Positions 21,185-40,257 of a stretch of DNA of 47,587 nt are shown in pieces. The notes under the pieces are model-generated. The model was not told the DNA's origin, did not search any database, and saw only the letters and a program-made list of their open reading frames with translations. The stretch's first letter is position 1; each line of letters starts with the position of its first letter. Source of the stretch: Clostridiales bacterium (GTDB taxonomy: Bacteria > Bacillota > Clostridia > Christensenellales > Borkfalkiaceae); NCBI GenBank assembly GCA_015069295.1, contig SVIW01000012.1:1-47587 (forward strand). The letters are read 5' to 3'. Both the position numbers and the translations under genes were made by a program.

Positions 21185-24073
21185 TTATTTAATTTCCAAG
21201 AAACCCATTTCAAAAGCGGAAGGGAATACAAAAGTCTTTTCACCTTGTCCGAAATCGACTTTGATGTACTTTTGTGCTTTATCGATACGGATAATCTTGC
21301 CTTCGCCAAACTTTTTGTGAAGAACGGTTGCTCCTGCGACTGCACCCGAAAGGTCAAGTTCTATCTTTTGCGGTTCTTCTTTTGCCGTAACCGTCGTGGT
21401 AACGGTCGGTTTTACGCCATACGTAGCCGTGATGGAATCGCTCGCTTTAGGCGGTGTTTTCGGTTCGTCAACGGCAGGGGCGATTTCTTCAATAACTTCG
21501 GGTATAGCTTCCGCCGCAAAATCCATAGTCGCTTGTTGATTGAAGAACAACTTTTGATATTCTTCCCTGCGGATAACCGTATCCCAACCGCCGATTTCGT
21601 CGGAAATGTTCTTCTCGATACCCGTATAGGACAGCGACGAATCTTCATAACGCTTGAACTTGAAAATAGCATCGTTCATTAAGCTCGCATTGAATACACC
21701 GATTTCGCAAAGCAAATTAAAATCGTTTACGTCCAAACCCGTAACCTTCTTGAAAAGCCCAGGCTCTAACTGCGTAATAACGTCTTTCAAACAACGTTCG
21801 CGGTAGTCCGTCAAGTACATAAAGATAGGAATACGAGTAGCAAACTTGATAAGCTTTTCTTGAATTTGCTTGCGCAAAGACTTTGCCTTTTTATCTTCTT
21901 CGGAAATCTCTTTCTTTTCCTTTTCGGTCATTTTTTCCGTTTCTTTTTTGGCTTTTTTAACGGCTTCCGATTTGTTGATAATCGTTTGAATATCTTGATT
22001 AAGGGAACGGAATCCCTCGATATTCATAATCGCGTCCAAGGCTTCCTGATTCGCAAGCAAACGTCCCAAAGTGTAGTTGTCTACGTTGACAAGTAACGCC
22101 GATTCCCAACGTCTTGCAAGGAGCGTTGCACTCGTACCTGCCATAGCGATATCGAGAATATCCTGCGCGTTGATTTGCTTCATCGTACTGCCGTCGTAAG
22201 CCAAAACGGGCAAGAAATGAATGAAATCCGCAACCTTCTTTTCGGGGTTAGATTCGTCCACGTTCAGTCGGCAGGAGTAATCGGAAATTTGCCGTAAGGC
22301 TCTATCCAAAGCAAAGTCGAATACGTAACATTCCTGCTTTAAAAGTTGTTCGTTGCCGAAATCGTCTTTAATCTTCCAAGGCGATTGTACACGGAACGCC
22401 GTTTGGAAATACGTCTCGGGGGATTTGAGATTGCGGAGCATAAACACACCCGTCCACGGACGAATGGTAACCCCCGTCGTAAGCTTACCGCAAGAAAGGG
22501 TAATCGTCTTGGTTTCAAGCGGATTGCCCATCGACGCTTGCACGGGTTTGAGCGCGTCTAAACCGATACCTGCCCCCGTCCCAGCGCATACGTTTACCTT
22601 GTAATCGTGATAAAAAGTGTTTTGTTTTTGTGCAAGCAAATTCGCCATTGCTTGACAGCTTGCTACGTTTGGCAAGAACCATAACGTATGTGATAACACG
22701 TTTAATAAGCGCGTATCCGAAAAGGGCATAGGCGGACGCTTGTCCTGCCCAAGCTTCAAATCGTCCACGCTTGACGGCAAGTAAGAACCGCGTATCAAAT
22801 CCAACCACTTTTGCACTTCGTTTTCGTAAACGAACTTCGCTTCGTCGCCTTTGCCTTTTGCGGAAAAGAATACGTTAAGGTCAAACTCGTCATACTCACC
22901 TTGTACGGCGATTTGACGGATGCTTTCGGGAATACGATAGGTCAGCATCACCATACGTGGCAATTCTAAATAAGGATTGTTAGAGCCTATCCACGATTCC
23001 TTTGCGTTTTGTTCGTCCGAATACGTCCAGTTATAGATTTGGTCTTCAATGAACTCACCGCTGTTGATAGCGCGGAAAGGCGTACCCGAAAGGAAAAGAT
23101 AATATCCCGTCGAAATAGGCAAAAACGTTTCGTTGTATGCGTTGTCCGCTTCCGTGCGCTTGTACTGTTCCATATCGAAATCCGCGTTTTCTTCTTCGTC
23201 GGGATTTTCAAACAGTTTTTTCGCATTTTCACGCCACGCGCCGAAATGGTATTCGTCAAAGATAACCAAATCCCATTGCGTAGCGTGGATGAACTCGTTT
23301 TTCGCCTTGATACCGCCGTTTTCGTTCGTACCTAAAAGGTCTTGGAATGAACCAAATACCACGATAGGGCGCGACTTGTCCGCGCTTGCAAACTGCGTAT
23401 CAATATTGATTTTATTGTCGTGTGCGTCCTTGTTGGAAACGAATTGCCAACCCTCAAAATCCACGTGGGAAACGAGGTCTTCACGCCAAGCCGATTCCAC
23501 GGCAGGCTTAAAGGTAAGCACCAAAACGCGCTTAAAATTCATTTTCCGCGCCAACTGATAGCTTGCAAACGTTTTACCAAAGCGCATTTTCGCATTCCAA
23601 AGGAACTTCGGCGATTTTTCAGGTTCTTCCTTTTTCGCCAAAGCAAAATATTCCATCGTTTTTTGCACCGCAATTACCTGTTCGGGGCGCATTTTGAAAT
23701 TCGCATTGCGGTTTTCTTCCGAATAGATACCTTCGCGGACTTCTAAAATCGCCGATTGCACGTCTTTTACTGTGCAACGGAACCATTCGTTTTTGTCTTC
23801 GCCTTCGTTGAGCTGTCTAAATCCCTTACGGCGCAAAACGGTATGTATATCGTGGTCGGTAAAGCAAGTGCCGTCCGTGCGCATAGCCGATTCTTTCAAA
23901 AGAATGCGGTACGGAATAGCGCTTGTATGGAGCTGTTCCTTGATACGCTCTTCGGCGGTACGGTCGGTAAAGCCGACTTTGATATAATTTTTATGCGATT
24001 CTACACCGACAAACTCATACGCGTAAATGGTCGGCGTAACCTGCGGTCTTTGAATAAAAAATTCTTGTGGCAT
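21185..24073 (-). CDS. GIY-YIG nuclease-SF2 helicase fusion of a restriction-modification system
   Basis: 962 aa. Residues about 15-60 have a T5orf172-type GIY-YIG nuclease pattern (YAYEFVG...YIKVGFTDRTAEERIKEQ). A superfamily 2 helicase core follows: Walker A AKMRFGKT (161-168), Walker B DEYH (273-276), FLSGTPFRA motif III-like, and a C-terminal helicase half with TGVTIRPW and RVQSPWK. A Lys/Glu-rich coiled coil (about 690-730) leads to a final ~50-residue domain (GATVLHKKFGEGKIIRIDKAQKYIKVDFGQGEKTF) resembling the Tudor-like end of UvrD/PcrA. It should be the restriction subunit: translocation plus cleavage of unmodified DNA. It starts 9 nt behind the two-TM gene, with a weak ribosome site. 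Confidence 0.82.
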   Translation of the reverse strand: MPQEFFIQRPQVTPTIYAYEFVGVESHKNYIKVGFTDRTAEERIKEQLHTSAIPYRILLKESAMRTDGTCFTDHDIHTVLRRKGFRQLNEGEDKNEWFRCTVKDVQSAILEVREGIYSEENRNANFKMRPEQVIAVQKTMEYFALAKKEEPEKSPKFLWNAKMRFGKTFASYQLARKMNFKRVLVLTFKPAVESAWREDLVSHVDFEGWQFVSNKDAHDNKINIDTQFASADKSRPIVVFGSFQDLLGTNENGGIKAKNEFIHATQWDLVIFDEYHFGAWRENAKKLFENPDEEENADFDMEQYKRTEADNAYNETFLPISTGYYLFLSGTPFRAINSGEFIEDQIYNWTYSDEQNAKESWIGSNNPYLELPRMVMLTYRIPESIRQIAVQGEYDEFDLNVFFSAKGKGDEAKFVYENEVQKWLDLIRGSYLPSSVDDLKLGQDKRPPMPFSDTRLLNVLSHTLWFLPNVASCQAMANLLAQKQNTFYHDYKVNVCAGTGAGIGLDALKPVQASMGNPLETKTITLSCGKLTTGVTIRPWTGVFMLRNLKSPETYFQTAFRVQSPWKIKDDFGNEQLLKQECYVFDFALDRALRQISDYSCRLNVDESNPEKKVADFIHFLPVLAYDGSTMKQINAQDILDIAMAGTSATLLARRWESALLVNVDNYTLGRLLANQEALDAIMNIEGFRSLNQDIQTIINKSEAVKKAKKETEKMTEKEKKEISEEDKKAKSLRKQIQEKLIKFATRIPIFMYLTDYRERCLKDVITQLEPGLFKKVTGLDVNDFNLLCEIGVFNASLMNDAIFKFKRYEDSSLSYTGIEKNISDEIGGWDTVIRREEYQKLFFNQQATMDFAAEAIPEVIEEIAPAVDEPKTPPKASDSITATYGVKPTVTTTVTAKEEPQKIELDLSGAVAGATVLHKKFGEGKIIRIDKAQKYIKVDFGQGEKTFVFPSAFEMGFLEIK

Positions 24074-24082
24074 AACTTATTT

Positions 24083-24829
24083 CTATTTCTTTTTCCCTTG
24101 TGTTTTTTGCGTGTATTTATCTAATTTTGTATGGTGGACAAACTTGTTGAGAAGCGCATTTATTTCGTCTAAATTACTATCTAAAATTTTCGTTTTAGTA
24201 TTATAGCTTGTTAAAACATCTCTTAACCAAATAGAAGGCTCAAATTTGCGACTATCCACTTGTTGGACTTTATAGCGAAAATCAAAATCATCGAGGTATA
24301 AATTGTAGTCAAATGTGTTAAATTTATCCCTAATCGCAAACATAATTTTTTTAACGTCATCAATATCACGGAATAAACCGCTATAATCATCAATTAGGGT
24401 GTAAAAAGTTTCAGTGTCAAAATCGGAATAGTTCTTAATTGTGCACACGCCTTTTTTGACAGTATCTTTGAAAATATCATATAATCTTTGTTCATTATCA
24501 TTTTCGGGTAAAATAGGAGGTTTTGTTTGTATGAGTCGTTCGTAATTTTCGTTATACCAACTTTTTATATCGATTAGCTTGCCTAACCTATTGAAGCATT
24601 GGTGGTAAAATTTTATTTGAGCTTGTCTCCGTGCAGAAAAATAATAAATCAAAGGGGTAATAATACCAACTATTGAACCTGCAAATAATGAAATGAAAAT
24701 TGAGCTGATAAAATTAAGAATTTCGTTGTAATCTCGCACAGTAATTTTGAACGTGCAAAAGAAAGAAATTGCAAAAGTTATAATGGCAAGAATAATACAA
24801 GAAACAGTAATGGTTTTATTGGTTTTCAT
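24083..24829 (-). CDS. two-TM protein of unknown function inside the R-M operon
   Basis: 248 aa. Two hydrophobic segments open the protein (about 8-28, ITVSCIILAIITFAISFFC; and about 38-64, ILNFISSIFISLFAGSIVGIITPLIYYF), followed by about 180 cytoplasmic residues that are helical, charged and Tyr/Asp/Lys-rich, ending KYTQKTQGKKK. No known domain is recognised. An AAAGGAG site lies 6 nt before the ATG, and TATAAT on the minus strand (24863-24868), with a poor -35, suggests a promoter of its own. It is markedly more AT-rich than the methylase and helicase genes around it, suggesting separate acquisition. Its position implies a role in defence (effector, anchor or regulator), but that is inference. 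Confidence 0.75.
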   Translation of the reverse strand: MKTNKTITVSCIILAIITFAISFFCTFKITVRDYNEILNFISSIFISLFAGSIVGIITPLIYYFSARRQAQIKFYHQCFNRLGKLIDIKSWYNENYERLIQTKPPILPENDNEQRLYDIFKDTVKKGVCTIKNYSDFDTETFYTLIDDYSGLFRDIDDVKKIMFAIRDKFNTFDYNLYLDDFDFRYKVQQVDSRKFEPSIWLRDVLTSYNTKTKILDSNLDEINALLNKFVHHTKLDKYTQKTQGKKK

Positions 24830-24909
24830 AAAAATCTCCTTTTACTTTTTATGTTAATTTACATTATACTTACCCTAAAAATGTTATTTTGAAACACTTT
24901 TTTGTTAAT

Positions 24910-26415
24910 TTATTCCATTTTCTTAATCATAGACTCGATAAAATCGATTTCTTCTTGTGTTAGGGCGTACTTTGCGTATAATTCTTCGTCTGTCCAAGAT
25001 TTTGAGAAATCCTGCATAGGGACAAAAGTATATACATTTTTAGCAGCATTTTGCGTGTTTTTCTTAAATAAAACGAAAAAGCGGAAAAACTTAGTCATCA
25101 TATAGTTTTTGATGTTTTCAACTATCGCTTTATCGTCATTTGCTCCAATCACAAGATAGGTTTCAGTACAGCATGTGCCTTTCTCTCCAATAAAGGGTTT
25201 ACCTAAAACAAAATACGGGAATTCACCACGTTCACCATAGGCTTTAGAAATAAATACTTTATATTGATTTATCCATTCTTTGTTTTGACGAACATTGTAT
25301 TTTAGTATGTAGCCGTTTTTGGGATATGCAAATACAGGAATCAGATTTACATCTTCTTTTTCATAAATTTTGTCCGTGGCTTCTATTCCAAAGGGTTTAC
25401 GTGGGCTGACTATCTTTTCAAAAGAGGATTCATTGTAATTGCGGACTTTACGCAAAATGCTGATAGCGTTGTTAAAGCGCACAAAACTTTCCGCGTTATC
25501 TTCTAAAAGGGGTCGTGTCATTTCGGTCGTTTTTTGCCCTTCGTGTGAAATAATAGTGCAATCACCCTCATTATCTCTATCCCATAAGAAAAAGCATACA
25601 CCACCTGAAATATCGACGCCAGGAAAACATTCTTCGGCGTTAAAATAGTCTACCAAATGGCGAATGCGTTTATCAGAAAGCATAGTGGCACGAAATTCGT
25701 CTAACCCTTTACCACCCGAAAACCAACGGGACGGAATAATCATAGATAAATAACGCGGTTTCAACTTCTTCGCTTGCTCTACGAATAATTGATAAATAGG
25801 CTTTGCGCTTGAACCTGTACCGCCACCATCGCTGATTTGATACGGGGGATTGCTGATAATTACGTCGAATTTCATATTGAGTATTTCCTTTGCGTCTTTC
25901 TTGTGGATAAATTCGTATGCGTGAGTTTCTAATTCGTCGCCACGGTCGTATTGCCCTTTGTTTGCACCGCAGTAAATACATTTTCCACCCACCCAGGTAT
26001 GGGGCGAACGCTTAAAACGGATATTTCCTTCGGCGGTGTCAAACTTGCTTACCGAAAAATCGGTGTTCGGGTATTTACTGCAATAGATTCCGCGACGGGA
26101 AAGTAAACTCGTGAGTTCGGTAATCGCTATCCCGAAAAGCTGTTTATGAAAAATATGGTTGATACGTTCTTGCAAATCGGGGAATTGCGGTTCAAGCCCT
26201 TTAATCAAGCGTTTTGCAATCTCGCGCAGGAACACGCCCGTTTTACACGCAGGGTCTAAAAACGTAGTGTCGGGGTTTTTGAATAGCTCCTGCGGCAGCA
26301 TATCCAACATTTTGTTTACGATTTCGGGCGGCGTAAACACTTCGTCGTTGGAAAGGTTGGCAAGGCAACTCAAAACGTCGGGGTTATATACTTTGTTGAA
26401 TAAATTTTCACTCAT
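24910..26415 (-). CDS. Eco57I-like N6-adenine DNA methyltransferase
   Basis: 501 aa. It should methylate adenine in the recognition sequence and protect host DNA. Motif X-like DEVFTPPEIV (24-33), SAM-binding motif I FLDPACKTG (52-60, Lys where Gly is usual) and catalytic motif IV NPPY (189-192) are present. CIYCGANKGQYDRGDELETHAYEFI (146-170) holds a CxxC typical of this restriction family. The C-terminal third is the probable target-recognition region. GGAGGG precedes the ATG, which lies within the end of the upstream gene (8-nt overlap). It is presumably the active methylase of the pair. Confidence 0.9.
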   Translation of the reverse strand: MSENLFNKVYNPDVLSCLANLSNDEVFTPPEIVNKMLDMLPQELFKNPDTTFLDPACKTGVFLREIAKRLIKGLEPQFPDLQERINHIFHKQLFGIAITELTSLLSRRGIYCSKYPNTDFSVSKFDTAEGNIRFKRSPHTWVGGKCIYCGANKGQYDRGDELETHAYEFIHKKDAKEILNMKFDVIISNPPYQISDGGGTGSSAKPIYQLFVEQAKKLKPRYLSMIIPSRWFSGGKGLDEFRATMLSDKRIRHLVDYFNAEECFPGVDISGGVCFFLWDRDNEGDCTIISHEGQKTTEMTRPLLEDNAESFVRFNNAISILRKVRNYNESSFEKIVSPRKPFGIEATDKIYEKEDVNLIPVFAYPKNGYILKYNVRQNKEWINQYKVFISKAYGERGEFPYFVLGKPFIGEKGTCCTETYLVIGANDDKAIVENIKNYMMTKFFRFFVLFKKNTQNAAKNVYTFVPMQDFSKSWTDEELYAKYALTQEEIDFIESMIKKME

Positions 26416-27079
26416 TTTCCTGTACCCTCCGATAGTGGGTTACGTATTTCTTAAGGAACGTTCCTTCGTCGCTTGGTATATCGTCTATGCGCATTTGCTT
26501 TTTATCGTCGTTTTGGGCAAGCAATTCCGCGAAGGTGTAATCGCTACGTTGCATTTGAAAGCCTGTGATAAACGCCCATTCGGAAAAGACAATCGGTTCG
26601 TCCGTGTCGTTGCCGTTTTCGTCCACGCATTTCAGCGTAAGCGCGTTTCCGCAAACGATATTGCGTCTGAAGATAAAGCGCACGGCGTCACGCGTCTGGT
26701 TGCTACATTCTTTCTTGCAAACGGCTTTGTATTCCTTATCCCAAATCTTGAACATTCGCTCCCTACAAGCGATAACGTTATCGATTAAAATATCCACGCC
26801 GTAAATGCTTGACGCCGCCAACACGGCGTTTTTTTCATAATCAAGTGCGGATTTTTTGTACTTGCGCTTGACGATTTCAAGTTTGCGCGTAAGGATTTCA
26901 GCAAGGAAATTGCCATCACCGCACGCAGGCTCTAAAAACCTACTGTCAATGCGTTCCGTTTCGTTTTTTACAAGGTCGCACATGGCTTTCACTTCGCGTT
27001 CGTTGGTAAAAACTTCGCCGTGGTCGCGCACCCGTTGCCTTGATTTTGTTTGAGATTTTTGCATAATTTTATCTTTCAT
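26408..27079 (-). CDS. partner methylase-like subunit lacking the catalytic motif
   Basis: 223 aa from the ATG at 27079. It carries HGEVFTNEREVKAMCDLV and SAM motif I RFLEPACGDGNFL (about 47-59), but no NPPY/DPPY motif IV, so it is probably a non-catalytic partner of the 501-aa methylase. An upstream in-frame start (to 27127) is excluded because it lies across the consensus promoter 27087-27115. The predicted transcription start falls at or one base before the ATG, so the message is nearly leaderless; a second in-frame ATG at 27064 is an alternative start. It overlaps the next gene and heads the four-gene R-M operon. Confidence 0.82.
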   Translation of the reverse strand: MKDKIMQKSQTKSRQRVRDHGEVFTNEREVKAMCDLVKNETERIDSRFLEPACGDGNFLAEILTRKLEIVKRKYKKSALDYEKNAVLAASSIYGVDILIDNVIACRERMFKIWDKEYKAVCKKECSNQTRDAVRFIFRRNIVCGNALTLKCVDENGNDTDEPIVFSEWAFITGFQMQRSDYTFAELLAQNDDKKQMRIDDIPSDEGTFLKKYVTHYRRVQENE

Positions 27080-27086
27080 ACCATAT

Positions 27087-27115
27087 ATTATATGTGCAAT
27101 ACACATATTTGTCAA
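27087..27115 (-). promoter_or_regulatory. consensus promoter of the R-M operon
   Basis: On the minus strand TTGACA (27110-27115), 17 nt, TATAAT (27087-27092). The start is predicted near 27080, immediately before the ATG at 27079, giving a leaderless or near-leaderless mRNA. Confidence 0.85.
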
Positions 27116-27130
27116 TGTGTAAAGCACATT
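27091..27130. promoter_or_regulatory. two matched dyad operators in the divergent R-M control region
   Basis: TATGTG-N5-CACATA (27091-27107) and AATGTG-N5-CACATT (27114-27130) are perfect 6-bp inverted repeats with equal 5-nt spacers, centres 23 bp apart. The first covers the -10 and spacer of the R-M promoter, the second its -35 and the region upstream of the regulator gene. This paired arrangement is that of C-protein operators in type II R-M systems. Confidence 0.75.
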
Positions 27131-30477: not shown

Positions 30478-30529
30478 TTGACATATTACCATTTTGGTAG
30501 TATAATATTTGAAAAACCACCAAATTGGT
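30478..30529 (+). promoter_or_regulatory. consensus promoter of the BspA-like gene with two operators
   Basis: TTGACA (30478-30483), 17 nt, TATAAT (30501-30506). ACCATTTTGGT (30488-30498) sits in the spacer and the perfect palindrome ACCAAATTGGT (30519-30529) lies just after the start site; centres are 31 bp (about three helical turns) apart. Each is followed by AGTATA. Confidence 0.8.
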
Positions 30530-30548
30530 AGTATATTGGAGGCTGTAT

Positions 30549-31697
30549 ATGGGAAAAATGAAAAAATGGTTACTTGGGGCGTTGTCCGTTTTGACGCTGT
30601 GTGCGGTATCCGTAGGGGCTTCGGCTTGCGGCGGGCAGAACGGCGCAGACGGTAAGGACGGCGCGGACGGTAAATCGGCATACCAAATTTGGTTGGACAA
30701 CGGACATACTGGCACGCAGGCAGACTTTTTAGAGTGGTTACAGGGTGATGGCAAAGACGGTGTGGACGGTAAAGACGGTGTGGACGGCAAAGACGGCGCA
30801 GACGGTAAAGACGGCACTGACGGCAAAGATGGTGTGGACGGCAAATCGGCATACCAGATTTGGCTGGATAACGGCTATAAGGGTACGGAAGCGGACTTTT
30901 TAGAATGGTTAAAAGGAGACGGCGTTTCTTCGGCGGAAATTTTGCAATATCAGCGGATCAGCGGTAAGGAGGAATACCGCGTTATCGGTATCGGCACGGT
31001 ATCTTCTTTGGATATAGAGATTCCTGTAACCTATAAGGGGTTTCCCGTAACGGAAATCGGAGAAAGAGCATTTTATGAACAAGTCTATTTGGAAAGCGTA
31101 TCGATACCCGATTCTGTTGCGAGTATCGGCAATTCTGCGTTCTATGGTTGCAAGAGCTTGACGAGCGTAGAAATCTCCGATTCGGTTGCGAGTATCGGTG
31201 ATTCTGCGTTCTATAATTGCACCAGCTTGACGAGCATAGAAATTCCTAATAGTGTAACGAATATCGGTGGTAATGCATTTGCCTATTGTAGCAGTTTAAC
31301 GAAAATCTATTACAATGCAGAGACCGCTACGTGTGGAATCTGCTTATTCACAAGGGCGGGAGCAAACGGCGATGGGGTCACGCTGACGATTGGTGCTAGT
31401 GTGAAGACGCTCCCTTATGAGCTTACTTATGTGGTAGACGAATTTAATAAGCCTAAAATCACCAAGGTCGTTTTTGAAGAAGGCTCGGTTTGCGAAAGTA
31501 TCGAATACACGTTTAAAAATCTCAGTAGTTTGACTAGCATAGAAATTCCTGATTCCGTTACGAGTATTGCGGAGGGCGCGTTCTCTGGTTGCAATAGCTT
31601 GACAATTTATTGCGAGGCGGAAAGTCAGCCGAGCGGTTGGGAGAATAATTGGAATGGCGGTTGTACCGTAGAATGGGGATATAATAAAACGGCTTGA
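30549..31697 (+). CDS. surface lipoprotein with collagen-like GKDG repeats and BspA-type leucine-rich repeats
   Basis: 382 aa from the ATG at 30549 (GGAGG 6 nt upstream). The lipoprotein signal ends GASAC (Cys near 27). Two copies of a short domain, GKSAYQIWLDNGxxGTxADFLEWL (about 41-66 and 98-123), flank a collagen-like run of GKDG(V/A/T)DG triplets. LRR_5/BspA repeats follow (about 160-345), each of the form SLTSIEIPDSVTSIGxxAFxxC. BspA proteins are often adhesins. It is regulated probably by the divergent XRE protein. The collagen-like region is made of nearly identical DNA repeats and is likely to vary in length. Confidence 0.85.
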   Translation: MGKMKKWLLGALSVLTLCAVSVGASACGGQNGADGKDGADGKSAYQIWLDNGHTGTQADFLEWLQGDGKDGVDGKDGVDGKDGADGKDGTDGKDGVDGKSAYQIWLDNGYKGTEADFLEWLKGDGVSSAEILQYQRISGKEEYRVIGIGTVSSLDIEIPVTYKGFPVTEIGERAFYEQVYLESVSIPDSVASIGNSAFYGCKSLTSVEISDSVASIGDSAFYNCTSLTSIEIPNSVTNIGGNAFAYCSSLTKIYYNAETATCGICLFTRAGANGDGVTLTIGASVKTLPYELTYVVDEFNKPKITKVVFEEGSVCESIEYTFKNLSSLTSIEIPDSVTSIAEGAFSGCNSLTIYCEAESQPSGWENNWNGGCTVEWGYNKTA

Positions 31698-33114: not shown

Positions 33115-33561
33115 TTAAAGTAATGCAATCAACCAAGTCAAGAAATTGACGGGAACGGTAACCGCCGTGCCAAGCGCGAGGGCGCAAGCGACGATGCCGA
33201 GGACGAGGGTTGCCACGGGCAGGGGCTGCCCTGCTTTTTTAAGCCGAACGGATAAGAGAATGGAATGAATCCCCATAATGGCTGCGGGTACGCAAAAGAC
33301 GATTGCCGCCGCTAAAAACAAAAGACCGAGGATTGCGCCGAACCAACCGCTGTATAAGAGCGCGACGGAAACGGCGGCTACGATTTGCGCGATGGCGGCG
33401 GCAATCGCTCCGGTCAGCGCGGGTTTAAAGCCTACCATTCGGGGATTGTATTCCGCCGTAGGCGGGGGAGTAAGAAGTTCGTTTTCAGCAGCTTTTGCCT
33501 TACATTCGTCGCAAACGTCCGCTTCGCAATCGAGTTCTTTGCCACAATGTTTACAAGTCAT
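33115..33561 (-). CDS. zinc-ribbon membrane protein
   Basis: 148 aa from the ATG at 33561 (GGAGG upstream; the longer frame to 33654 has no site). CKHC...CDEC (3-21) is a zinc ribbon, then a short polar linker and three or four hydrophobic segments (about 49-72, 76-97, 115-148), similar to DUF4190-type small membrane proteins. It is 34 nt behind the LRAT-PPTase gene on the same strand and may be its last co-transcribed gene, though GGAGG and a spacer also allow independent translation. Function unknown. Confidence 0.75.
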   Translation of the reverse strand: MTCKHCGKELDCEADVCDECKAKAAENELLTPPPTAEYNPRMVGFKPALTGAIAAAIAQIVAAVSVALLYSGWFGAILGLLFLAAAIVFCVPAAIMGIHSILLSVRLKKAGQPLPVATLVLGIVACALALGTAVTVPVNFLTWLIALL

Positions 33562-33595
33562 AATTGCCTCCTTATAAGGTGTATTTTTTCTTTCG

Positions 33596-34600
33596 TTACA
33601 GTTTTTCGTGGGGTACGAAAACAAGCTTTCGTTTGGCAAGGTCGGGAGAAGCAACCGTTAGCAGGTACTTTTCGCCCGCAATTTCGATTTCTTGCGTTTC
33701 GACTTGTTCGTTTGCCGTTTCAATGTGCTCAGGATGAAAAACGGGCTGGTTTAAACTTTTAAACACACTTTCCTTTTGCGTCCATTTTTCCAAAAGATAA
33801 CGGTTTTTCTCTTCGATAGGCAAAGCGGAAAACTCGTCTTTTTCTCTCGCCGTCAGAATTTTATTTTCCACGCCCGATTTTACGGCGGCTATCCGTTCGA
33901 TATCCACGCCCAAGGTTTTTCGTGAGAGCGCGACGGCGACGGCGTTGCCGCTGTGAGAAAGGGAAAAAGCGCAGTCAGGACATTCCCATTTTCCGTTTTT
34001 ATTTTTCGTAATCGAGAGTTTTTTTAGTTTTTTTCCAAACGTCCGTTCCAAGGCGTATTCGAGCAGTTTCCAAACGTAATATTTTTCCCGTCGTACCTTT
34101 TCCGAGCCGCACGCGTGGATTTCTGTGTTCCGTTCGGGGGGGTGGACGGTTTTTATTTTGCCGTTTTTTGGCAGTTCACTGACGTAAATATCCAAAAGCG
34201 GCAGGCTTTGAAATAGGCTGCGCACGTCTTCCGTTTGCGAGCAGTATTTTTCGCCGAGGTAACACTCGTAGGCGAAGTGTTCGCAGTTGTTGTACAAAAT
34301 ATGATAACCCGTCTCGCCGATTCGGCTGCGTGCAAAGGAAACAATTTCTTCGACCTTGCGTTTCTTTTTCAGTTCTTTTTTATCAGGCACGCCGACCTCT
34401 AAAAAGCTTCCGTTTAGAAATTCTTCCATATTGGATGCGCACACCGCTACGTCCTTTGCCGCCAAAGCAGGGCGCGCGGTGGGGGCTAAGCCGAACTGAA
34501 TCACTTCGTCGTCCGATACGTAAATGCCATAATGATGAAACTGCCCGAAAGACATACGTATCATGTCCCCGCAAACGGGCTCTTTTAATTCCCAGTTCAT
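33596..34600 (-). CDS. fusion: LRAT-like acyltransferase/hydrolase domain plus Sfp-type 4'-phosphopantetheinyl transferase
   Basis: 334 aa. Residues about 1-140 look like an LRAT/NlpC-type thiol fold: GDMIRM, HHYGIYV (22-28, catalytic His) and NNCEHFAYECY (104-114, catalytic Cys106), then SQTED. LRAT enzymes take an acyl group onto Cys from phospholipid and pass it on. Residues about 155-334 are a phosphopantetheinyl transferase: FSLSHS (212-217), GVDIE (231-235) and WTQKESVFK (273-281), the P1-P3 signatures; it should activate the carrier protein at 34597 and the carrier domain at 38075. It overlaps the ACP gene by ATGA. I know no standard family with this fusion, though this is from memory. 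Confidence 0.82.
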   Translation of the reverse strand: MNWELKEPVCGDMIRMSFGQFHHYGIYVSDDEVIQFGLAPTARPALAAKDVAVCASNMEEFLNGSFLEVGVPDKKELKKKRKVEEIVSFARSRIGETGYHILYNNCEHFAYECYLGEKYCSQTEDVRSLFQSLPLLDIYVSELPKNGKIKTVHPPERNTEIHACGSEKVRREKYYVWKLLEYALERTFGKKLKKLSITKNKNGKWECPDCAFSLSHSGNAVAVALSRKTLGVDIERIAAVKSGVENKILTAREKDEFSALPIEEKNRYLLEKWTQKESVFKSLNQPVFHPEHIETANEQVETQEIEIAGEKYLLTVASPDLAKRKLVFVPHEKL

Positions 34601-34857
34601 TCTTCGTTGACTTTTTTCTCGATGTAGTTAAGGACGTCGGAAACCCTTTTAAAATCGCCAAACCCCACGTCGTCGAAACGGATAGAGAAAAATTCTTCAA
34701 TCGCGATGACGATAAACAAAATCCCGACCGAATTTAACCCCAAATCGTCGGTTAAAACCGAGTCTTCTTGACACTTGTCGGCAAGCGTGGGATTGCCCGT
34801 CGCCGTGGTGATTACTTCTTTTAACTTATCTACAATTTCCGTTCTTGTCATCGCCAT
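34597..34857 (-). CDS. stand-alone acyl carrier protein
   Basis: 86 aa. Small acidic four-helix protein with the phosphopantetheine site Ser43 in DDLGLNSVGIL (37-47), where housekeeping ACPs read GADSLD; the LNSVG form is typical of specialised carriers. Its 3' end overlaps the LRAT-PPTase start by 4 nt, and its start lies within the end of the upstream acyltransferase gene (32-nt overlap), so translation is tightly coupled. An in-frame ATG two codons later is an alternative start. Confidence 0.92.
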   Translation of the reverse strand: MAMTRTEIVDKLKEVITTATGNPTLADKCQEDSVLTDDLGLNSVGILFIVIAIEEFFSIRFDDVGFGDFKRVSDVLNYIEKKVNEE

Positions 34858-35539
34858 TTTTCATTCTCTCTTTCTTTTTATTTTCACAGTACGTTTGATA
34901 ATACTGCACCAGTTCGTTTTCCTTTTGCTGTAAATATTCGCTTGCCTTTTGTAAATCGGCGAGGGTGGGCTTTTCGCCGCAGAGCTGCTTCAAATCGATT
35001 TTGTCGCCCAACACCACGATTTGTCGGTTGTACCAATGCGTTCTCTTGACGATATACACGGGCACAATCGGGGCGTTGCCTTTAAGCGCCATCATCGCCG
35101 CTCCCCATTTGAAGGTCAAAACGGATTTTGACTCGTCGCGGTTGACCATGCCTTCGGGAAAAATCGAAATCACGCCGCCGCTTTGCAGTCCGTCGCAAAC
35201 CTCGTGGGTTGATTGCATACTGAAATTTTCCTTGTCGACGGGGATACAGTGCAAATGCCTGAAAAACCAAGCTCCCAGCTTAGTTCTGTAAAGATGTTTG
35301 GTCGCCAAAAACCGTACCCGTCTTCTCCAAAACAGGCAGTTGATAATAATCGGGTCTAAAAAGGTAACGTGATTGGAAGATATCAACGCCGCGCCTTTGA
35401 TTTTTTCCGATTTCGTATTGCCGGCGCGTATCTTCTTTAATCGGAAAAACAGCAGCATAGGAATTGCGCCTGTAATTTTCACGAAATCGAAGAAAAAATA
35501 ACGCCTACGCTTTTTTTTCTGATTTTCTTTCGAGCTCAT
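34826..35539 (-). CDS. PlsC-like acyltransferase
   Basis: 237 aa. 1-acylglycerol-3-phosphate acyltransferase fold. SSNHVTFLDP contains HX4D (His57, Asp62), IFPEGMVNRDE gives the acyl-acceptor phosphate motif, and IVPVYIVKR the third block. An N-terminal hydrophobic helix (about 14-33) fits membrane binding. It overlaps the previous gene by 35 nt. The acyl donor may be the ACP encoded directly after it. Two such enzymes in tandem suggest sequential acylation of one acceptor, or two different acyl chains. Confidence 0.88.
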   Translation of the reverse strand: MSSKENQKKKRRRYFFFDFVKITGAIPMLLFFRLKKIRAGNTKSEKIKGAALISSNHVTFLDPIIINCLFWRRRVRFLATKHLYRTKLGAWFFRHLHCIPVDKENFSMQSTHEVCDGLQSGGVISIFPEGMVNRDESKSVLTFKWGAAMMALKGNAPIVPVYIVKRTHWYNRQIVVLGDKIDLKQLCGEKPTLADLQKASEYLQQKENELVQYYQTYCENKKKERMKNGDDKNGNCR

Positions 35540-36164
35540 ATTGCAGTTCTATTATTTTGTCCCGTAAATACTTAGTAATATTGTTGACGTTTTCCTTTTC
35601 GCTTAAACTTTCGTCGTACAGCGCCGCCGCGTCGATGGGCTTGCCAATCATAACGCAAGTGCGCTTTTTAGAGAAAAGCTTGCCGTTCGTTGCAACGGGG
35701 ATAATCGGCGCGCCGCTTTTTAGCGCCAAATATACCGTGCTGGGCTTAAAGGGCAGGGGGGATTCCTCGCCTTTTCTCGGCAGGCGGGATTCGGGATAAA
35801 TTTCCACGACCCCGTTTTTATCAAGAATTTTTTTGCAAGAATCTAAAAACCGAAAATCGTTTGCGTTTCTGTCTACCTTGATACTGCCCATCGAGCGCAA
35901 AAAGAAGGACAAAAACGGGTTCTTTTCAAACATCAGCTCCGCCACTACGCAGCGCGGATTGCGCCAGAAAAATGTCATCATCATCGTCCCGACGTCCCAT
36001 ACCGAAGTATGCAGGGGCGCGATAATCGCTTTGCCTTTTAGTTTACGGCTTTGCGCCTTTTTGTCTTCATAATAAAATTTCGGTCTGCAAGCAATCCAAT
36101 AGGGCAAAACTCCCGTGAGTTTTACAAACCAATGAAAAATTGCTCGCCAAATCGCCCGCCACAT
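35505..36164 (-). CDS. PlsC-like acyltransferase (second, divergent copy)
   Basis: 219 aa. APLHTSVWD has HX4D (His52, Asp57), and VEIYPESRLPRKGE replaces the usual EGT-type motif by PES. PIIPVATNGK is the later conserved block. The sequence shares architecture but little identity with the 237-aa copy next to it. Its ATG overlaps the transporter stop by one base (TAATG), indicating coupling. The altered PES motif may indicate a different acceptor. Confidence 0.85.
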   Translation of the reverse strand: MWRAIWRAIFHWFVKLTGVLPYWIACRPKFYYEDKKAQSRKLKGKAIIAPLHTSVWDVGTMMMTFFWRNPRCVVAELMFEKNPFLSFFLRSMGSIKVDRNANDFRFLDSCKKILDKNGVVEIYPESRLPRKGEESPLPFKPSTVYLALKSGAPIIPVATNGKLFSKKRTCVMIGKPIDAAALYDESLSEKENVNNITKYLRDKIIELQYELERKSEKKA

Positions 36165-38038
36165 TACGTCGCCGCCTTTTCTTCTTCCGCGTACAGCTTA
36201 TTGGCTTTGCTTTGTAACAGCGCAAGGGAAAGGAAGTTGAGGGGTAAAATCGGCAAAACACAGCCAAACAGGATATGGAAAACTTTTTTACTCTTACAAG
36301 CCACGCCGCGCGATTTTGCTTCGCCGCAAAGAGCCTCGTCCGCCTTGCAGGCGAGGAAAAGTCCAAAGAAAGGCAGACAAGAGGACAGCGCCCACAAAAG
36401 CGCGGGTTTGCCCTTGCCCGTCAAGGCTTTTACCGAACGCAGTAAAAACGCGCTCCAAATAAACCCGAAGATACCGCCCGAAAGCACCCAAAGCCCGATT
36501 TGCACGAAACCGATTTCCTCTTTTTCTTCCTTTACCTTATACTCGTCTAAGTCAAGCACGGACAAATCGATAGAGGGGTCTTGTTCTTTTAATTCTTTCC
36601 CAACGAGCTGGGGCGTGTATTCTTTGGGCATTCTAAAAGCGAGAATTGCACCTAAAATGCAGGCGATACAAACGATAAAGGGCACGAGCAAAGTGCCGAG
36701 ATTTAAAAGCTGGCTTTCCGCAACGCCGAGGGTAGCAGCCGCTTCTTCCGCGCTTTCCGCCCAAGTAATACCGCCCGATTTGTTGATAAACACCATACGA
36801 ATCAAGCCGTAGATAAGCGAGCCGGAGAGCGCGCCGACGATGGAAGAGAATACGGCGTTTGCCGCGAAATACATTGCCGAGTGGTTTTTCTTCGTCAATT
36901 TTTCCTCCACGCTGGAAATTTGTGCGGTAACGAGGTAGGGCATCATAAAGAACGCGCCGATCGCCCAACTGCCGACCATACCGCCGACGCAGCCGATAAT
37001 ATATTTCGGCATAGAGTTATCTCCCCAAATCAAGGACGAGCCGAAGAAGAAAGACAGTATCGATACAGCAAAGGCGATTAGGCAGGTTTGATAGGTAAAA
37101 CGAATCCCTTTCTTTGCCTTGACCTTGTTGAAAAGGTACAGCATCACGGGCACGGGCGCGAACGCGCACGTGTTGAGTATTGCCATTCCTACGCCGCTCA
37201 TACCCATACCGTCGCCGATAAGCGAGTTCATCGAGGCGAGGAACATTTGCAGACCGAAGAAGGTGCAGCAGTTGACCGCCTGCCAGCGCATAAAGGGTTT
37301 GTTTTTTAAGGTGATACGCAGGCTTTCGAAAAGCTTTACCCGCTGAGGGGCTAAGCCCTCGTTTTCGGGATAGCCGTATTTTGCGCCCTCTTTAATGAGG
37401 AAGAGGGGGATCAGCATCGTCAGCATCAACGGCAGGGAAAGGAAGACGAAGGTGTCGATTTGGATTTTTAAGGTTTCCAGCAACAAGGGAACGAGCGCGT
37501 ATACCAAACAGTAGGAAATGGTGTCGAAGAAGGATTTATACCCCGAAACGCGCAGTCTTTGCGGCTCGTCTACGCAAGTGGTGGACAAGGAGCCGTAGAA
37601 AGAAATCAAAGACATCGTGTAGGTAGCAAAGAAGATAATCGACCAAAAGAAGGACCAAATCGTGTTAAGAAGCTGTCCGTCCGCGCCGCCGATCGGCAAC
37701 CAGCACAGCGCAAAGGAAAGGACCATCGGGATAAAGCATACCGCAATCGCAGGGCGGCGTCTGCCCCATTTCGTCGAAAGGGTATCCGTGATATGTGCAA
37801 AGGGGATATCGATAATCCCGTCAAACACCTTTGCCAAGGCGTAGAGGATAGGGAAAAGGGCGGGCAGGATAAAACAAGTACCGCCCAAAATTGCCTGATA
37901 CCCCTCGTTTGCGCCGAGGTTGACGGGGTTGAGCGCGCCCATATAATACGCGCCCATCAATACCATTAAAAAGTTAGGGCCAAAGCCCGAAAAGCCGAAG
38001 AGGAATTCTTTCCATTTGGAATTAAGCGATTTAATCAT
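36164..38038 (-). CDS. GPH-type MFS transporter with a C-terminal membrane extension
   Basis: 624 aa, longer than the usual 450-480 of glycoside-pentoside-hexuronide (MelB-like) carriers. About 12 transmembrane segments with FDGIIDIPFAHITDTLSTKWGRRRP (about 73-97, the D-x-x-x-G/RxGRRRP loop of the family). After a charged linker (about 470-510) an additional three to four hydrophobic segments (about 513-600, GLWVLSGGIFGFIWSAFLLRSV..., resembling DUF4234) follow. In this operon it could flip or export the acylated product or import its acceptor, analogous to LplT beside Aas in E. coli, though the family differs. Confidence 0.85.
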   Translation of the reverse strand: MIKSLNSKWKEFLFGFSGFGPNFLMVLMGAYYMGALNPVNLGANEGYQAILGGTCFILPALFPILYALAKVFDGIIDIPFAHITDTLSTKWGRRRPAIAVCFIPMVLSFALCWLPIGGADGQLLNTIWSFFWSIIFFATYTMSLISFYGSLSTTCVDEPQRLRVSGYKSFFDTISYCLVYALVPLLLETLKIQIDTFVFLSLPLMLTMLIPLFLIKEGAKYGYPENEGLAPQRVKLFESLRITLKNKPFMRWQAVNCCTFFGLQMFLASMNSLIGDGMGMSGVGMAILNTCAFAPVPVMLYLFNKVKAKKGIRFTYQTCLIAFAVSILSFFFGSSLIWGDNSMPKYIIGCVGGMVGSWAIGAFFMMPYLVTAQISSVEEKLTKKNHSAMYFAANAVFSSIVGALSGSLIYGLIRMVFINKSGGITWAESAEEAAATLGVAESQLLNLGTLLVPFIVCIACILGAILAFRMPKEYTPQLVGKELKEQDPSIDLSVLDLDEYKVKEEKEEIGFVQIGLWVLSGGIFGFIWSAFLLRSVKALTGKGKPALLWALSSCLPFFGLFLACKADEALCGEAKSRGVACKSKKVFHILFGCVLPILPLNFLSLALLQSKANKLYAEEEKAAT

Positions 38039-38074
38039 TCGTACACCTGCTTTTTATTCTCAATAAAGGGGGGA

Positions 38075-40006
38075 TTAGTTTTTGGAAATACAGTCGCAAA
38101 TTTCGCGCACGGTGGAAGGGGCTTGCTCTTCCTCGGCGGAAAGCTGTACGCCGTACCTCGTTTGAATACGGTCGTTTAACGCGAAATAATCGAGGCTGGA
38201 GCCGTCGAGGTCGCGGAAGAAGTTGGCGTCCACGCCCACCGTAGCGGGGTCTTTGTCTAAAACCTCGGCAACGCAAGCGCGCACTTCCAGTTCTAACGCG
38301 GAAAGCATTTCGTCGAGATGGCGTTGCATATTTTGCCAGTCAATCAAACGGAATTCGCCGTTTTTAAACCTTTTCGCGACCTTTTTGCGGCTGATTTTAA
38401 AATCGCCGTCCTCTAATAACGAGTCTGGGGTTACGTGGATTTTTCGCACGACCGTTTCCAGGTTTGCCGTTTTTATATTTTCCAATATTTTATCGTAAAC
38501 GCCTTGCAGCTTTTCGGAAGAATAACAGTCTTTCACGTGGACAAGCAGTACGGGCTGCCCTTCGCTTTCAAACAAGCACACGGCTTCCGCGCTTTCGACG
38601 AGCAAGGCTTTTTCCGTTTGTACGGGGTTCAGGTTTTCGCCGTTTTCGCACACGATCAAATCGTCGTGGCGGCCGCCGACGTAATACCGTCCGTTTTCAA
38701 AGCTCGCAAGGTCGCGCGTTTGAAACCATTCGTTATAATCAGTCGCGCGCTTTATCCCGCCTTGCCATATCGAATGGGCGCGGGTTTTCCCTTTTACTTC
38801 CAACTCGCCCGTGTCGCCTATGCGGTATTGCGTATAGTTGAACGGTCTGCCGATAGAGCCGCTTGCCAAGGTTTTCTTGTTATCGCTAATTTCTACCGAG
38901 GTAATCCCGATTTCCGTCATACCGTAGCCGTTGGTAAGGTGATAACCGATTCCGTTGAAGAAGGACAGCGTTTCCTTTTGGATAAAGCTGCCGCCCGAAA
39001 TAAGGAACTGCACGCTTTCTCCAAACAGCCCTTGGCGGATTTCCTTGAAGGCTTTGCGAGCGAACCAATCGCCGAACTTGCCGCGCTTTTCCGCAAAACG
39101 CAGAGCTTTTTCAAACTTTGCAAACGTCTTTTCGCCTCGCAGGCGGATTTTTTTCAGCGCCGCCTTATAGATGGAATCCCATACGAGCGGGACGGCGAAA
39201 ATATGGGTTACGTTGTGTTTTTTGACGGTGTTTAAAACGGTCTGCGCCTGTAAATCCTTGGGGAAAACGAAGGTGCGGGAGAAAAATCCGAACCAAACGT
39301 AAACCGCGATAAACCCAAACACGTGGTAAAAGGGCAATAAAACGAGTTGTTTTAATTCGCCGTGATAATGGGCTGCTATTTTCGGGCAGTGCTTTACGAT
39401 GGAAACGCTGTCGGCGATTTGGTAAAAGAGATTTTCGCCCGTATAGACGCACAGTTTTACCTTTTCCGTCGTGCCCGAGGACATAAATACGATTTCGTTT
39501 TCCCATACGGGGTTTTGCAAGGGCGACATTGCTTTCGTTCGTACGTTTTCCGAAAGCTCGTCGGTCAATAGCGTTTTTACGGAAAAGATTTTTCCGTCCG
39601 AAAGCACCGCTTCTACGCCGTAGTCGGCAAGAATGCTTTCCAATACCCGTTCGTTTAATCTCGAATTCATAAGCAAGGGCTTATACCCGCAAAGAAGAAG
39701 CGCCCAAAAAATCTCAATCCATTCGAGGCTGTTTGCCATATACAGTCCGACCATACTCCCTTTTTTTACGCCGTCAAGAGCAAGCGCAAGGTGCGGGGCA
39801 AGGGCAAGGATTTCCGCTTTACATTCGCCGTAGGTTATCTTTTTCACGCGGTAGCCGTCCGACGATTCCGCCATAATATTGTCCGACTCGCGAAACATAT
39901 ACGAAAACAGCGTTTCAAAGGTCTTTTCTTCCCTTTCAAAGTCCGCCAATTTTTGCGTAACGTATTTATCGATAGTTCTATATCCGTCGATGTTCGTCAG
40001 TCTCAT
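38075..40006 (-). CDS. AMP-forming acyl ligase fused to an acyl carrier domain
   Basis: 643 aa. Residues about 30-500 are an ANL-family adenylating enzyme: P-loop SSGTTEKVK (176-184), LPFYHVFGF, NGYGMTE (near 350), TRDLASF and YVGGRHDDLIV. A lid domain (about 460-540) ends GDFKISRKKVAKR with the catalytic Lys region. Residues about 560-643 are a carrier domain with the attachment Ser in FFRDLDGSSLDYF. It should activate a fatty or aryl acid with ATP and load it on its own carrier domain. It is the first gene of the operon, with its promoter and palindrome upstream. Confidence 0.9.
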   Translation of the reverse strand: MRLTNIDGYRTIDKYVTQKLADFEREEKTFETLFSYMFRESDNIMAESSDGYRVKKITYGECKAEILALAPHLALALDGVKKGSMVGLYMANSLEWIEIFWALLLCGYKPLLMNSRLNERVLESILADYGVEAVLSDGKIFSVKTLLTDELSENVRTKAMSPLQNPVWENEIVFMSSGTTEKVKLCVYTGENLFYQIADSVSIVKHCPKIAAHYHGELKQLVLLPFYHVFGFIAVYVWFGFFSRTFVFPKDLQAQTVLNTVKKHNVTHIFAVPLVWDSIYKAALKKIRLRGEKTFAKFEKALRFAEKRGKFGDWFARKAFKEIRQGLFGESVQFLISGGSFIQKETLSFFNGIGYHLTNGYGMTEIGITSVEISDNKKTLASGSIGRPFNYTQYRIGDTGELEVKGKTRAHSIWQGGIKRATDYNEWFQTRDLASFENGRYYVGGRHDDLIVCENGENLNPVQTEKALLVESAEAVCLFESEGQPVLLVHVKDCYSSEKLQGVYDKILENIKTANLETVVRKIHVTPDSLLEDGDFKISRKKVAKRFKNGEFRLIDWQNMQRHLDEMLSALELEVRACVAEVLDKDPATVGVDANFFRDLDGSSLDYFALNDRIQTRYGVQLSAEEEQAPSTVREICDCISKN

Positions 40007-40028
40007 TATACCTAGCCTTTTTATAGGT

Positions 40029-40048
40029 GCATAGAATGTATTCTATGC
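40029..40048. promoter_or_regulatory. palindromic operator before the acyl-ligase operon
   Basis: GCATAGAATGTATTCTATGC, 9-bp arms around GT (flanked by T and A, extending the symmetry by one base). It lies between the predicted transcription start (about 40063) and the start codon at 40006, where a bound repressor would block elongation. No TetR or similar gene adjoins, so the regulator must be elsewhere. Confidence 0.65.
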
Positions 40049-40069
40049 AAAAAACGTCGTATTTTGTTT

Positions 40070-40098
40070 ATTATATCACACAATTATCAAAAATGCAA
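40070..40098 (-). promoter_or_regulatory. SigA-type promoter of the acyl-ligase operon
   Basis: On the minus strand TTGCAT (40093-40098), 17 nt, TATAAT (40070-40075). Confidence 0.75.
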
Positions 40099-40233
40099 AA
40101 GTTTGAAAGCCAAAAACCAAAAAAAAGCAATCCCTCGCGCGCTCTTTTTTTGTTTTGCTTTGCCTATAAAAGGGGGGCGGGGAAGTTTCTTCAACGCATA
40201 CACGGTGCCTTCGTTTTTAAAAAAGCAAAGCAA

Positions 40234-40257
40234 AAAAACGCTTGAACAAGCGTTTTT
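40234..40257 (-). terminator. terminator of spmA-spmB
   Basis: AAAAACGCTT / AAGCGTTTTT with a 4-nt loop, followed on the minus strand by a T run; about 9 bp behind the spmB stop codon. Confidence 0.85.

Follow-up and report, generated by a model that had tools for sequence, protein, structure and literature searches.

The operon and its genes

The window analysed here is a stretch of 47,587 nucleotides, positions 1 to 47,587 of contig SVIW01000012.1 (assembly GCA_015069295.1), from a Clostridiales bacterium of the family Borkfalkiaceae, order Christensenellales. Its genome (G000) has 1.62 Mb and is 96% complete. On the minus strand, from 40006 to 33596, the window carries an operon of six intact open reading frames (ORFs) arranged head to tail, which code for two PlsC-like acyltransferases, a transporter, a stand-alone acyl carrier protein (ACP) and two fusion proteins: an acyl ligase with its own carrier domain, and an LRAT-type domain joined to a phosphopantetheinyl transferase (PPTase). 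LIG1, PlsA and PlsB are labels coined in this analysis. The genes and features are the following (aa, amino acids; MFS, major facilitator superfamily):

40234..40257, minus strand: terminator-like hairpin, from a consensus scan only (22 found versus 13.5 expected in the region)
40070..40099, minus strand: promoter-like site TTTGCA-18-TATAAT, with TG before the -10, from a consensus scan only (12 found versus 7.3 expected in the region)
38075..40006, minus strand: LIG1, AMP-forming acyl ligase with a C-terminal carrier domain (carrier about 38087-38284), 643 aa; Pfam AMP-binding and PP-binding
36164..38038, minus strand: GPH/MelB-type MFS transporter with a C-terminal extension, 624 aa; Pfam MFS_2
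35505..36164, minus strand: PlsA, PlsC-like acyltransferase with HTSVWD and YPESR motifs, 219 aa; Pfam Acyltransferase
34826..35539, minus strand: PlsB, second PlsC-like acyltransferase, with HVTFLD and FPEGM motifs, 237 aa; Pfam Acyltransferase
34597..34857, minus strand: stand-alone ACP with an LNSVG site, 86 aa; homolog beside LIG1 in 41 of 45 related loci
33596..34600, minus strand: LRAT-PPTase fusion gene, 334 aa
34205..34600, minus strand: LRAT/PLAAT-type domain of the fusion, about residues 1-132, with H23, Q35 and C106; from Pfam, structure model, fold and conservation
33596..34204, minus strand: Sfp-type PPTase domain of the fusion, about residues 133-334, with D233, E235, W273, K276, E277 and K281; from Pfam, Sfp as best match, and conservation in 32 fusions

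There is a single 36-base gap, after LIG1, and from PlsA onward every gene overlaps its predecessor by 1 to 35 bases. The terminator-like hairpin stands between an upstream pair of Gate-domain (SpmA/SpmB-like) genes and the operon. The first-pass annotation, made from the letters of the window alone, had already delimited a six-gene operon with the two fusions, and the intact ORFs and the Pfam names of their parts agree with it; its end point, 40098, includes the promoter-like site.

Conservation of the neighbourhood

Related loci were obtained by scanning public bacterial genomes with an alignment of the ligase-carrier protein, taking the best 80 of 548 stretches, among which any AMP ligase may count. 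Many of the 80 are of gut or rumen source, with names mostly of the Clostridia type and three of the Bacilli type (L144, L146, L151). Gene counts refer to the 45 loci of at least 19 kb, 35 of the 80 being shorter and excluded, and to detection by tblastn at E 1e-4, absences being upper bounds. Apart from LIG1, present in all 45 by construction, the genes recurred in the following numbers of loci: PlsA 45, PlsB 45, ACP 41, hydrolase 37, LRAT 36, FakB 35, FakA 34, a second acyl ligase (LIG2) 32, PPTase 24, transporter 24 and LRAT fused to PPTase 20. The labels FakA, FakB and hydrolase are based on the Pfam and NCBIfam matches of four loci (L063, L046, L047, L052); the recurring hydrolases are lipase-like, of the alpha/beta kind.

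The full order is LIG1 - (transporter) - PlsA - PlsB - LIG2 - ACP - LRAT(=PPTase) - hydrolase - FakB - (transporter) - FakA - hydrolase. The transporter occupies either of two positions. In the first, window-like layout, LIG1 and PlsA are separated by a long transporter (about 620-660 aa); the second has a short transporter (about 440-500 aa), flanked by FakB and FakA; one locus (L080) has both. Partial loci also occur, some with LIG1, transporter, PlsA, PlsB and PPTase only (L052, L074, L076), others with only the LIG2-ACP side (L053, L054, and likewise L047, with PlsB). Clustering of the ORFs of the 80 loci yielded, besides the operon families, short ORFs (mostly shadow frames) and two zinc-ribbon clusters (19 and 8 loci), three other long families in 6-7 loci only, one an ABC transporter and the other two subunits of phenylalanyl-tRNA synthetase.

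Within the order, 9 of 297 genomes, window included, gave a match to the fusion or the LRAT domain (E up to 1e-20, N-terminal half covered), and in all the other eight it is adjoined by PlsC-like genes and/or by a second ligase and ACP. Two further LRAT loci, in G033 and G045 (L071), are without these neighbours. LIG1 sequence distances correlate with those of PlsA, PlsB, LRAT, ACP, FakA and FakB (r 0.74-0.88), and the motif residues of the ligases, acyltransferases, carrier, LRAT and PPTase are retained in most or all relatives. The neighbours are conserved across genomes, both in the 45 long loci and in the order. Beyond what the single window could tell, the operon is widespread, its relatives add a second ligase, FakA, FakB and hydrolases, and the genome is without FabF and FabD. 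Concerning plasmids, no LIG1 match was found at E 1e-40, and the fusion gave five weak partial matches, none covering more than half of it.

The LRAT-PPTase fusion

Both halves of the fusion are recognized by Pfam (LRAT 2.6e-19, ACPS 2.1e-11), and its structure model is of high confidence (predicted local distance difference test, pLDDT, 96). Fold comparison assigns the N-terminal domain to the LRAT/PLAAT fold, of the permuted NlpC/P60 kind, in agreement with the first-pass proposal, while the PPTase half has the Sfp fold, with Sfp as best structural match and the GVDxE and WxxKE motifs. No signal peptide is seen by eye.

The conservation of the LRAT domain was followed in an alignment (A3) of 61 rows, comprising the window, nine other loci and 51 of the 57 ORFs of the LRAT group. 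The six left out were four over-long ORFs (L089, L117, L121, L132) and L108 and L126. L126 and L136 duplicate the DNA of L063 and L064, both genomes being in both sets, and L136 and L064 are both in A3. H23 and C106, which align to the PLAAT4 motif, are conserved in 61 of 61 rows and form the His/Cys dyad, the Cys within an NCEHF motif. Position 35, aligned to the second His of PLAAT4, is Q in 50 rows, A in 10 and H in 1. The passages of PMC7387801 that describe the superfamily call its third catalytic residue just 'polar', and because of this the assignment to an LRAT-type fold stands despite Q35; the narrower PLAAT label does not, the second His being replaced.

When G000 was searched with the fusion sequence (E up to 0.001), only the fusion itself was found, with no second Sfp-like PPTase; AcpS was not sought in that search. 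A relation between the presence of LRAT and that of ACP was considered, and no such tie exists in the 45 loci. A second kind of PPTase fusion occurs in the same operon type, as in L052 (6338-8047, plus strand) the PPTase is joined to an alpha/beta hydrolase.

Ligases, carriers and acyltransferases

LIG1 matches Pfam AMP-binding (1.6e-42) and PP-binding (4.4e-9). K537, R540 and the carrier S604 are invariant across 9 aligned rows, and among 77 relatives the P-loop pattern was counted in 61, the carrier site in 67 and the FK.R motif in 59. A profile search of the PDB with LIG1 gave only succinylbenzoate-CoA ligase at E 1e-30, which is uninformative on the substrate. The stand-alone carrier falls under the cut-off both of Pfam (PP-binding 0.0054) and of the NCBIfam ACP models, the best of which gives 5.9e-12; its site pattern is kept in 60 of 66 relatives. 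It is not the sole ACP of the cell: a normal-scoring ACP lies on contig 1 of G000 (C1:14170-14385), with 78.6 bits versus 32.2 for the operon ACP, and because of it the operon carriers are to be regarded as extra. LIG2, which adjoins the stand-alone carrier in most related loci, has a P-loop of the TGGTTG..K type in 56 of 57 cases.

PlsA and PlsB match Pfam Acyltransferase (1.5e-18 and 2.7e-25). The HX4D motif occurs within residues 25-110 in 76 of 76 PlsA and 66 of 66 PlsB relatives, and the second motif is kept as PE[SG][RT] in 57 of the 76 and as PEG in 62 of the 66. In L110 and L150 both acyltransferases are one protein with two Acyltransferase domains.

As a separate observation on LIG1, a ligase-carrier like it is fused in L158 (7419-10613, plus strand) to a class I/II aminotransferase domain, as given by Pfam in the one such locus checked; other open frames of 1,060-1,160 aa turned up in the search of the order for LIG1 homologs. 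This fusion suggests that carrier-bound acyl chains may be condensed with an amino acid, as in sphingoid-like or aminolipid synthesis.

The transporter

The transporter belongs to the GPH/MelB family by profile, fold and paired Asp residues. It matches Pfam MFS_2 (GPH-type) above the cut-off (1.3e-34) and NCBIfam gph below it, and a profile search finds MelB as best. Its model has a pLDDT of 76, and the ten best structures in Foldseek are all MelB or MFSD2A. D73 and D77, the paired Asp of the cation site, are invariant in 21 rows; by eye, we take them to correspond to MelB D55 and D59. MFSD2A is the animal importer of lysophosphatidylcholine; by sequence it gave no match, and in the fold comparisons only Foldseek places it alongside MelB. 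None of the NCBIfam matches to E 0.1 was an LplT model, the content of that library for LplT being unchecked.

Fatty acid synthesis in the genomes carrying the operon

In G000 there was no match to FabF and no match to FabD. FabF over the cut-off was found in 54 of 297 sampled genomes of the order and in none of the other 243, an apparent wide loss of fatty acid synthesis, mostly in genomes without the operon. Among 26 genomes, G037 is the one with FabF over the cut-off and also the one with FabD, the other 25 of the 26 being without FabD. Ten genomes of the order have a close LIG1 homolog (E below 1e-240, a line set once it was known that the next genome follows only at 5e-153), and all ten are without FabF over the cut-off. 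The LIG1 search profile (A1) has rows from 8 of the 10 top-ranked genomes other than G136, window counted, and the scores are partly given by construction.

A census of FabF was also taken in 50 of the 80 operon genomes, namely the 45 with long flanks and five picked by hand: 38 were without FabF over the cut-off and 12 had it. Of the 38, three have only a twin-ketosynthase protein (about 360 bits) and six only traces (18-24 bits). The presence of LRAT, LIG2 or FakA did not differ between FabF-bearing and FabF-less genomes (p 1.0, 0.26 and 0.14), while the transporter gene was found in 2 of 12 loci with FabF versus 27 of 38 without (Fisher 0.0017, uncorrected), L116 being scored without transporter although its locus stops after FakB. 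Proteins of about 740-900 aa with two tandem FabF-like ketosynthase matches, below the FabF cut-off, were observed in G163, G176, G288, G173, G342, G346, G374 and others, some of them genomes without ordinary FabF.

G000 has PlsX twice, the match of one copy spanning a TAA near its end. On contig 17, a FakA-family gene is directly followed by this TAA-bearing copy and then by two DegV-family (FakB-type) genes; the FakA-family model used matches 26 of 26 genomes. The other PlsX directly adjoins the ribonuclease III and SMC genes; in many Firmicutes the fab genes and acpP lie between plsX and rnc.

Proposed role of the operon

The operon probably serves a carrier-protein-based salvage of lipids, in which the logic of the E. 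coli Aas-LplT pair is combined with FakAB and membrane lipid is built from outside acyl chains. FakA, FakB, the lipase-like hydrolases, the GPH/MelB-type transporter and the missing FabF and FabD all point in this direction. Also in its favour are the second ligase of the conserved neighbourhood, the retained motif residues, the correlated sequence distances, the two PlsX copies of G000, the two-domain acyltransferase of L110 and L150, the Foldseek ranking of the transporter model, and the absence of FabF over the cut-off from 38 of 50 operon genomes and from the ten genomes of the order with a close LIG1 homolog. In this salvage route, the transporter would deliver an acylated molecule, probably of the lysolipid type, to the inner side of the membrane; LIG1 would activate fatty acids at the expense of ATP and attach them to the carrier domain that it contains; LIG2, in most relatives, would load the stand-alone carrier; and the PPTase half would activate both carriers. 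PlsA and PlsB would then transfer the carrier-bound chains to lysolipid or glycerol-phosphate acceptors, and the LRAT half, via an acyl-cysteine, might release acyl chains from the imported lipid or shift them. FakA/FakB and the alpha/beta hydrolases of the fuller operons would provide acyl-phosphate and fatty acid. All substrates, the direction of transport, the acyl acceptor and the LRAT reaction are what we infer from these gene contents, the LRAT step being the least certain part; we also infer that the bacteria carrying the operon largely depend on outside acyl chains.

Several observations weigh against this interpretation. Some sequence distances correlate less well (LIG1-LIG2 0.40, LIG1-MFS 0.61, LRAT-LIG2 0.29, ACP-LIG2 0.23), and all the distance correlations may merely mirror species history. 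An LRAT-PPTase gene (L045:10270-11274, minus strand, in G033) lies beside his-like genes, named by eye, away from the operon. With a second structural aligner, unrelated MFS proteins tie with MelB and MFSD2A for the transporter model, and therefore the substrate is not readable from the modelled fold. The first-pass annotation had held that every step for loading, transferring and moving an acyl group is present in the window; this does not hold throughout, as a search of G000 at E up to 1e-10 gave no second ligase, the sole match being LIG1 itself. At the base rate of the order, ten of ten genomes without FabF could arise by chance (probability about 0.13, or one time in seven or eight), and two of those ten are only 70-73% complete. 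FabF in 12 of 50 operon genomes means that the unit is not solely for cells without fatty acid synthesis and is no simple replacement of it, and rules out the operon as a strict marker of the loss of type II fatty acid synthesis (FASII); the completeness of the 50 genomes is not given, and some FabF absences may be gaps. Nor does the transporter gene serve as a marker of FASII loss, since its link with FabF, significant when uncorrected, is not significant on the LIG1 tree, with four independent pairs. Finally, the FakA-PlsX locus of G000 and the better ACP elsewhere indicate that the operon adds to a known route.

A rather doubtful extension of the salvage route is that the fusion is an acyl-lipid:carrier transacylase, whose LRAT half would move a chain from imported phospholipid or lysolipid, via an acyl-cysteine, onto the phosphopantetheine arm installed by the PPTase. 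This would explain why the window has a carrier and the fusion yet no second ligase. If true, cells that make no fatty acids of their own would be able to load their acyl carriers from scavenged lipid, with no need of free fatty acid or ATP.

Among the alternatives to lipid salvage, the one that survives best is repair instead of uptake: the operon would flip and re-acylate lysolipids of the cell's own membrane, as E. coli Aas-LplT does, outside lipid being incidental. The logical parts equal those of Aas-LplT (ligase, PlsC-type acyltransferase and MFS transporter, as outlined in PMC11416262), and the presence of the operon in the 12 genomes with FabF fits this view. The many operon carriers without FabF do not, and the presence of FakA (34 of 45 loci), FakB (35 of 45) and lipase-like hydrolases (37 of 45) is in keeping with fatty acids being supplied from outside; moreover, two ligases, two carriers and a PPTase would seem beyond the needs of repair. 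Repair seems unlikely.

It is also improbable that a special lipid, for instance an N-acylated one, is made or exported with the LRAT domain doing the distinctive transfer. The precedents, in the parts of PMC7387801 devoted to them, are that HRASLS/PLAAT enzymes can N-acylate phosphatidylethanolamine and that LnsA and LnsB are needed for lipoprotein N-acylation, their individual roles not being separated; LRAT is, besides, present in 36 of 45 loci. Against these stand the nine of 45 loci without LRAT, seven of which retain the ACP; the lack of a recurring amine, head-group or condensation gene among long families in at least 6 of the 80 loci; and the lack of a signal peptide, by eye, in a fusion whose PPTase works in the cytoplasm. 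The PPTase fusion also speaks against lipoprotein N-acylation as the task of the LRAT domain. Of the role given in the first-pass annotation, the loading and transfer of acyl groups largely holds, whereas nothing was found in support of a special or exported lipid, and FakA, FakB, the hydrolases, the transporter and the missing FabF and FabD point to assimilation instead.

That the operon is a small-molecule cluster of a kind with those for fatty acid amides in the gut, with which it shares a ligase and a free-standing ACP in gut Clostridia, is very improbable, and the idea was dropped, since the required condensation domain was found neither in the six proteins nor in any family that recurs in the 80 loci, and two PlsC-type genes, FakA and FakB are foreign to that type as described in the text of PMC13142362 at hand.

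Comparison with known systems

The LRAT-PPTase operon set is a variant on known systems of lipid uptake and remodelling. The likeness to E. coli Aas-LplT, noted in the first-pass annotation, holds as logic: an MFS transporter, an acyl-ACP synthetase and a PlsC-type acyltransferase act in one pathway. In what PMC11416262 sets out, Aas is one bifunctional synthetase-acyltransferase, whereas the operon has separate ligase and acyltransferase genes; it also differs in having two acyltransferases, dedicated carriers, a PPTase, an LRAT domain and a transporter of the GPH/MelB type (MFS_2). With FakAB-PlsX the fuller operons share FakA and FakB, both absent from the window operon, although G000 has the FakA-PlsX-DegV-DegV run elsewhere; FakAB makes acyl-phosphate, whereas the AMP-forming ligases of the operon would load carrier proteins directly.

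The permuted NlpC/P60 fold, the His and the NCEHF Cys are shared with PLAAT/HRASLS, from which the fusion differs by the Gln in place of the second His (50 of 61 rows) and by the PPTase. PLAATs have a C-terminal membrane anchor, not seen in the fusion. The LnsA of Staphylococcus, which acts with LnsB, is likewise a bacterial permuted NlpC/P60 protein linked to acyl transfer, but it has a signal peptide and partners LnsB, whereas the operon protein has a PPTase as fusion partner and an ACP as neighbour. Bacterial proteins of this fold with a bearing on acyl lipids are illustrated by Tox-Act1, a phospholipase, and by LnsA, needed with LnsB for lipoprotein N-acylation, as reported in sections of PMC7387801 and PMC12994826. 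The gut fatty acid amide clusters (OaaA/ACP/OaaC type) also pair a fatty-acid ligase with a free carrier in gut Clostridia; in place of their condensation domain the operon has PlsC-type acyltransferases.

Among the open-licence papers listed, no described pathway with this gene set was found, in line with the first-pass claim, a description elsewhere being possible. In the same literature no paper was found linking a bacterial LRAT with a phosphopantetheinyl transferase, and LRAT is absent from the papers that combine such subjects as fatty acid kinase, acyl-ACP synthetase, exogenous fatty acid and Clostridia.

Other features of the window

Immediately downstream of the operon, with uncertain membership in it, lies one more ORF:

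33115..33654, minus strand: small protein with CxxC pairs (zinc-ribbon-like by eye) and hydrophobic stretches

It has no Pfam match to 1e-3. The one ORF scanned from the zinc-ribbon clusters of the related loci matches Zn_Ribbon_1. Farther away, the window contains a secreted-looking protein (30525-31697, plus strand) with repeated DGKDG-type units followed by leucine-rich-repeat-like units, as seen by eye, and a restriction-modification-like group (21185-27127, minus strand) with a T5orf172/ResIII protein, an Eco57I-type methylase and neighbours.

Biological meaning

Many uncultured gut Clostridia appear to be without fatty acid synthesis. As to how such bacteria may build their membranes, FakAB-type incorporation has been suggested for one order, RF39, which is without fatty acid synthesis (PMC6784871), and very reduced Christensenellales have been reported without lipid synthesis (PMC12306168). 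The operon is a concrete, conserved and testable candidate for membrane building in such Clostridia, and its LRAT-PPTase fusion ties carrier activation to acyl-lipid chemistry. It suggests lysolipids, monoacylglycerols and fatty acids as growth factors for the cultivation of these bacteria.

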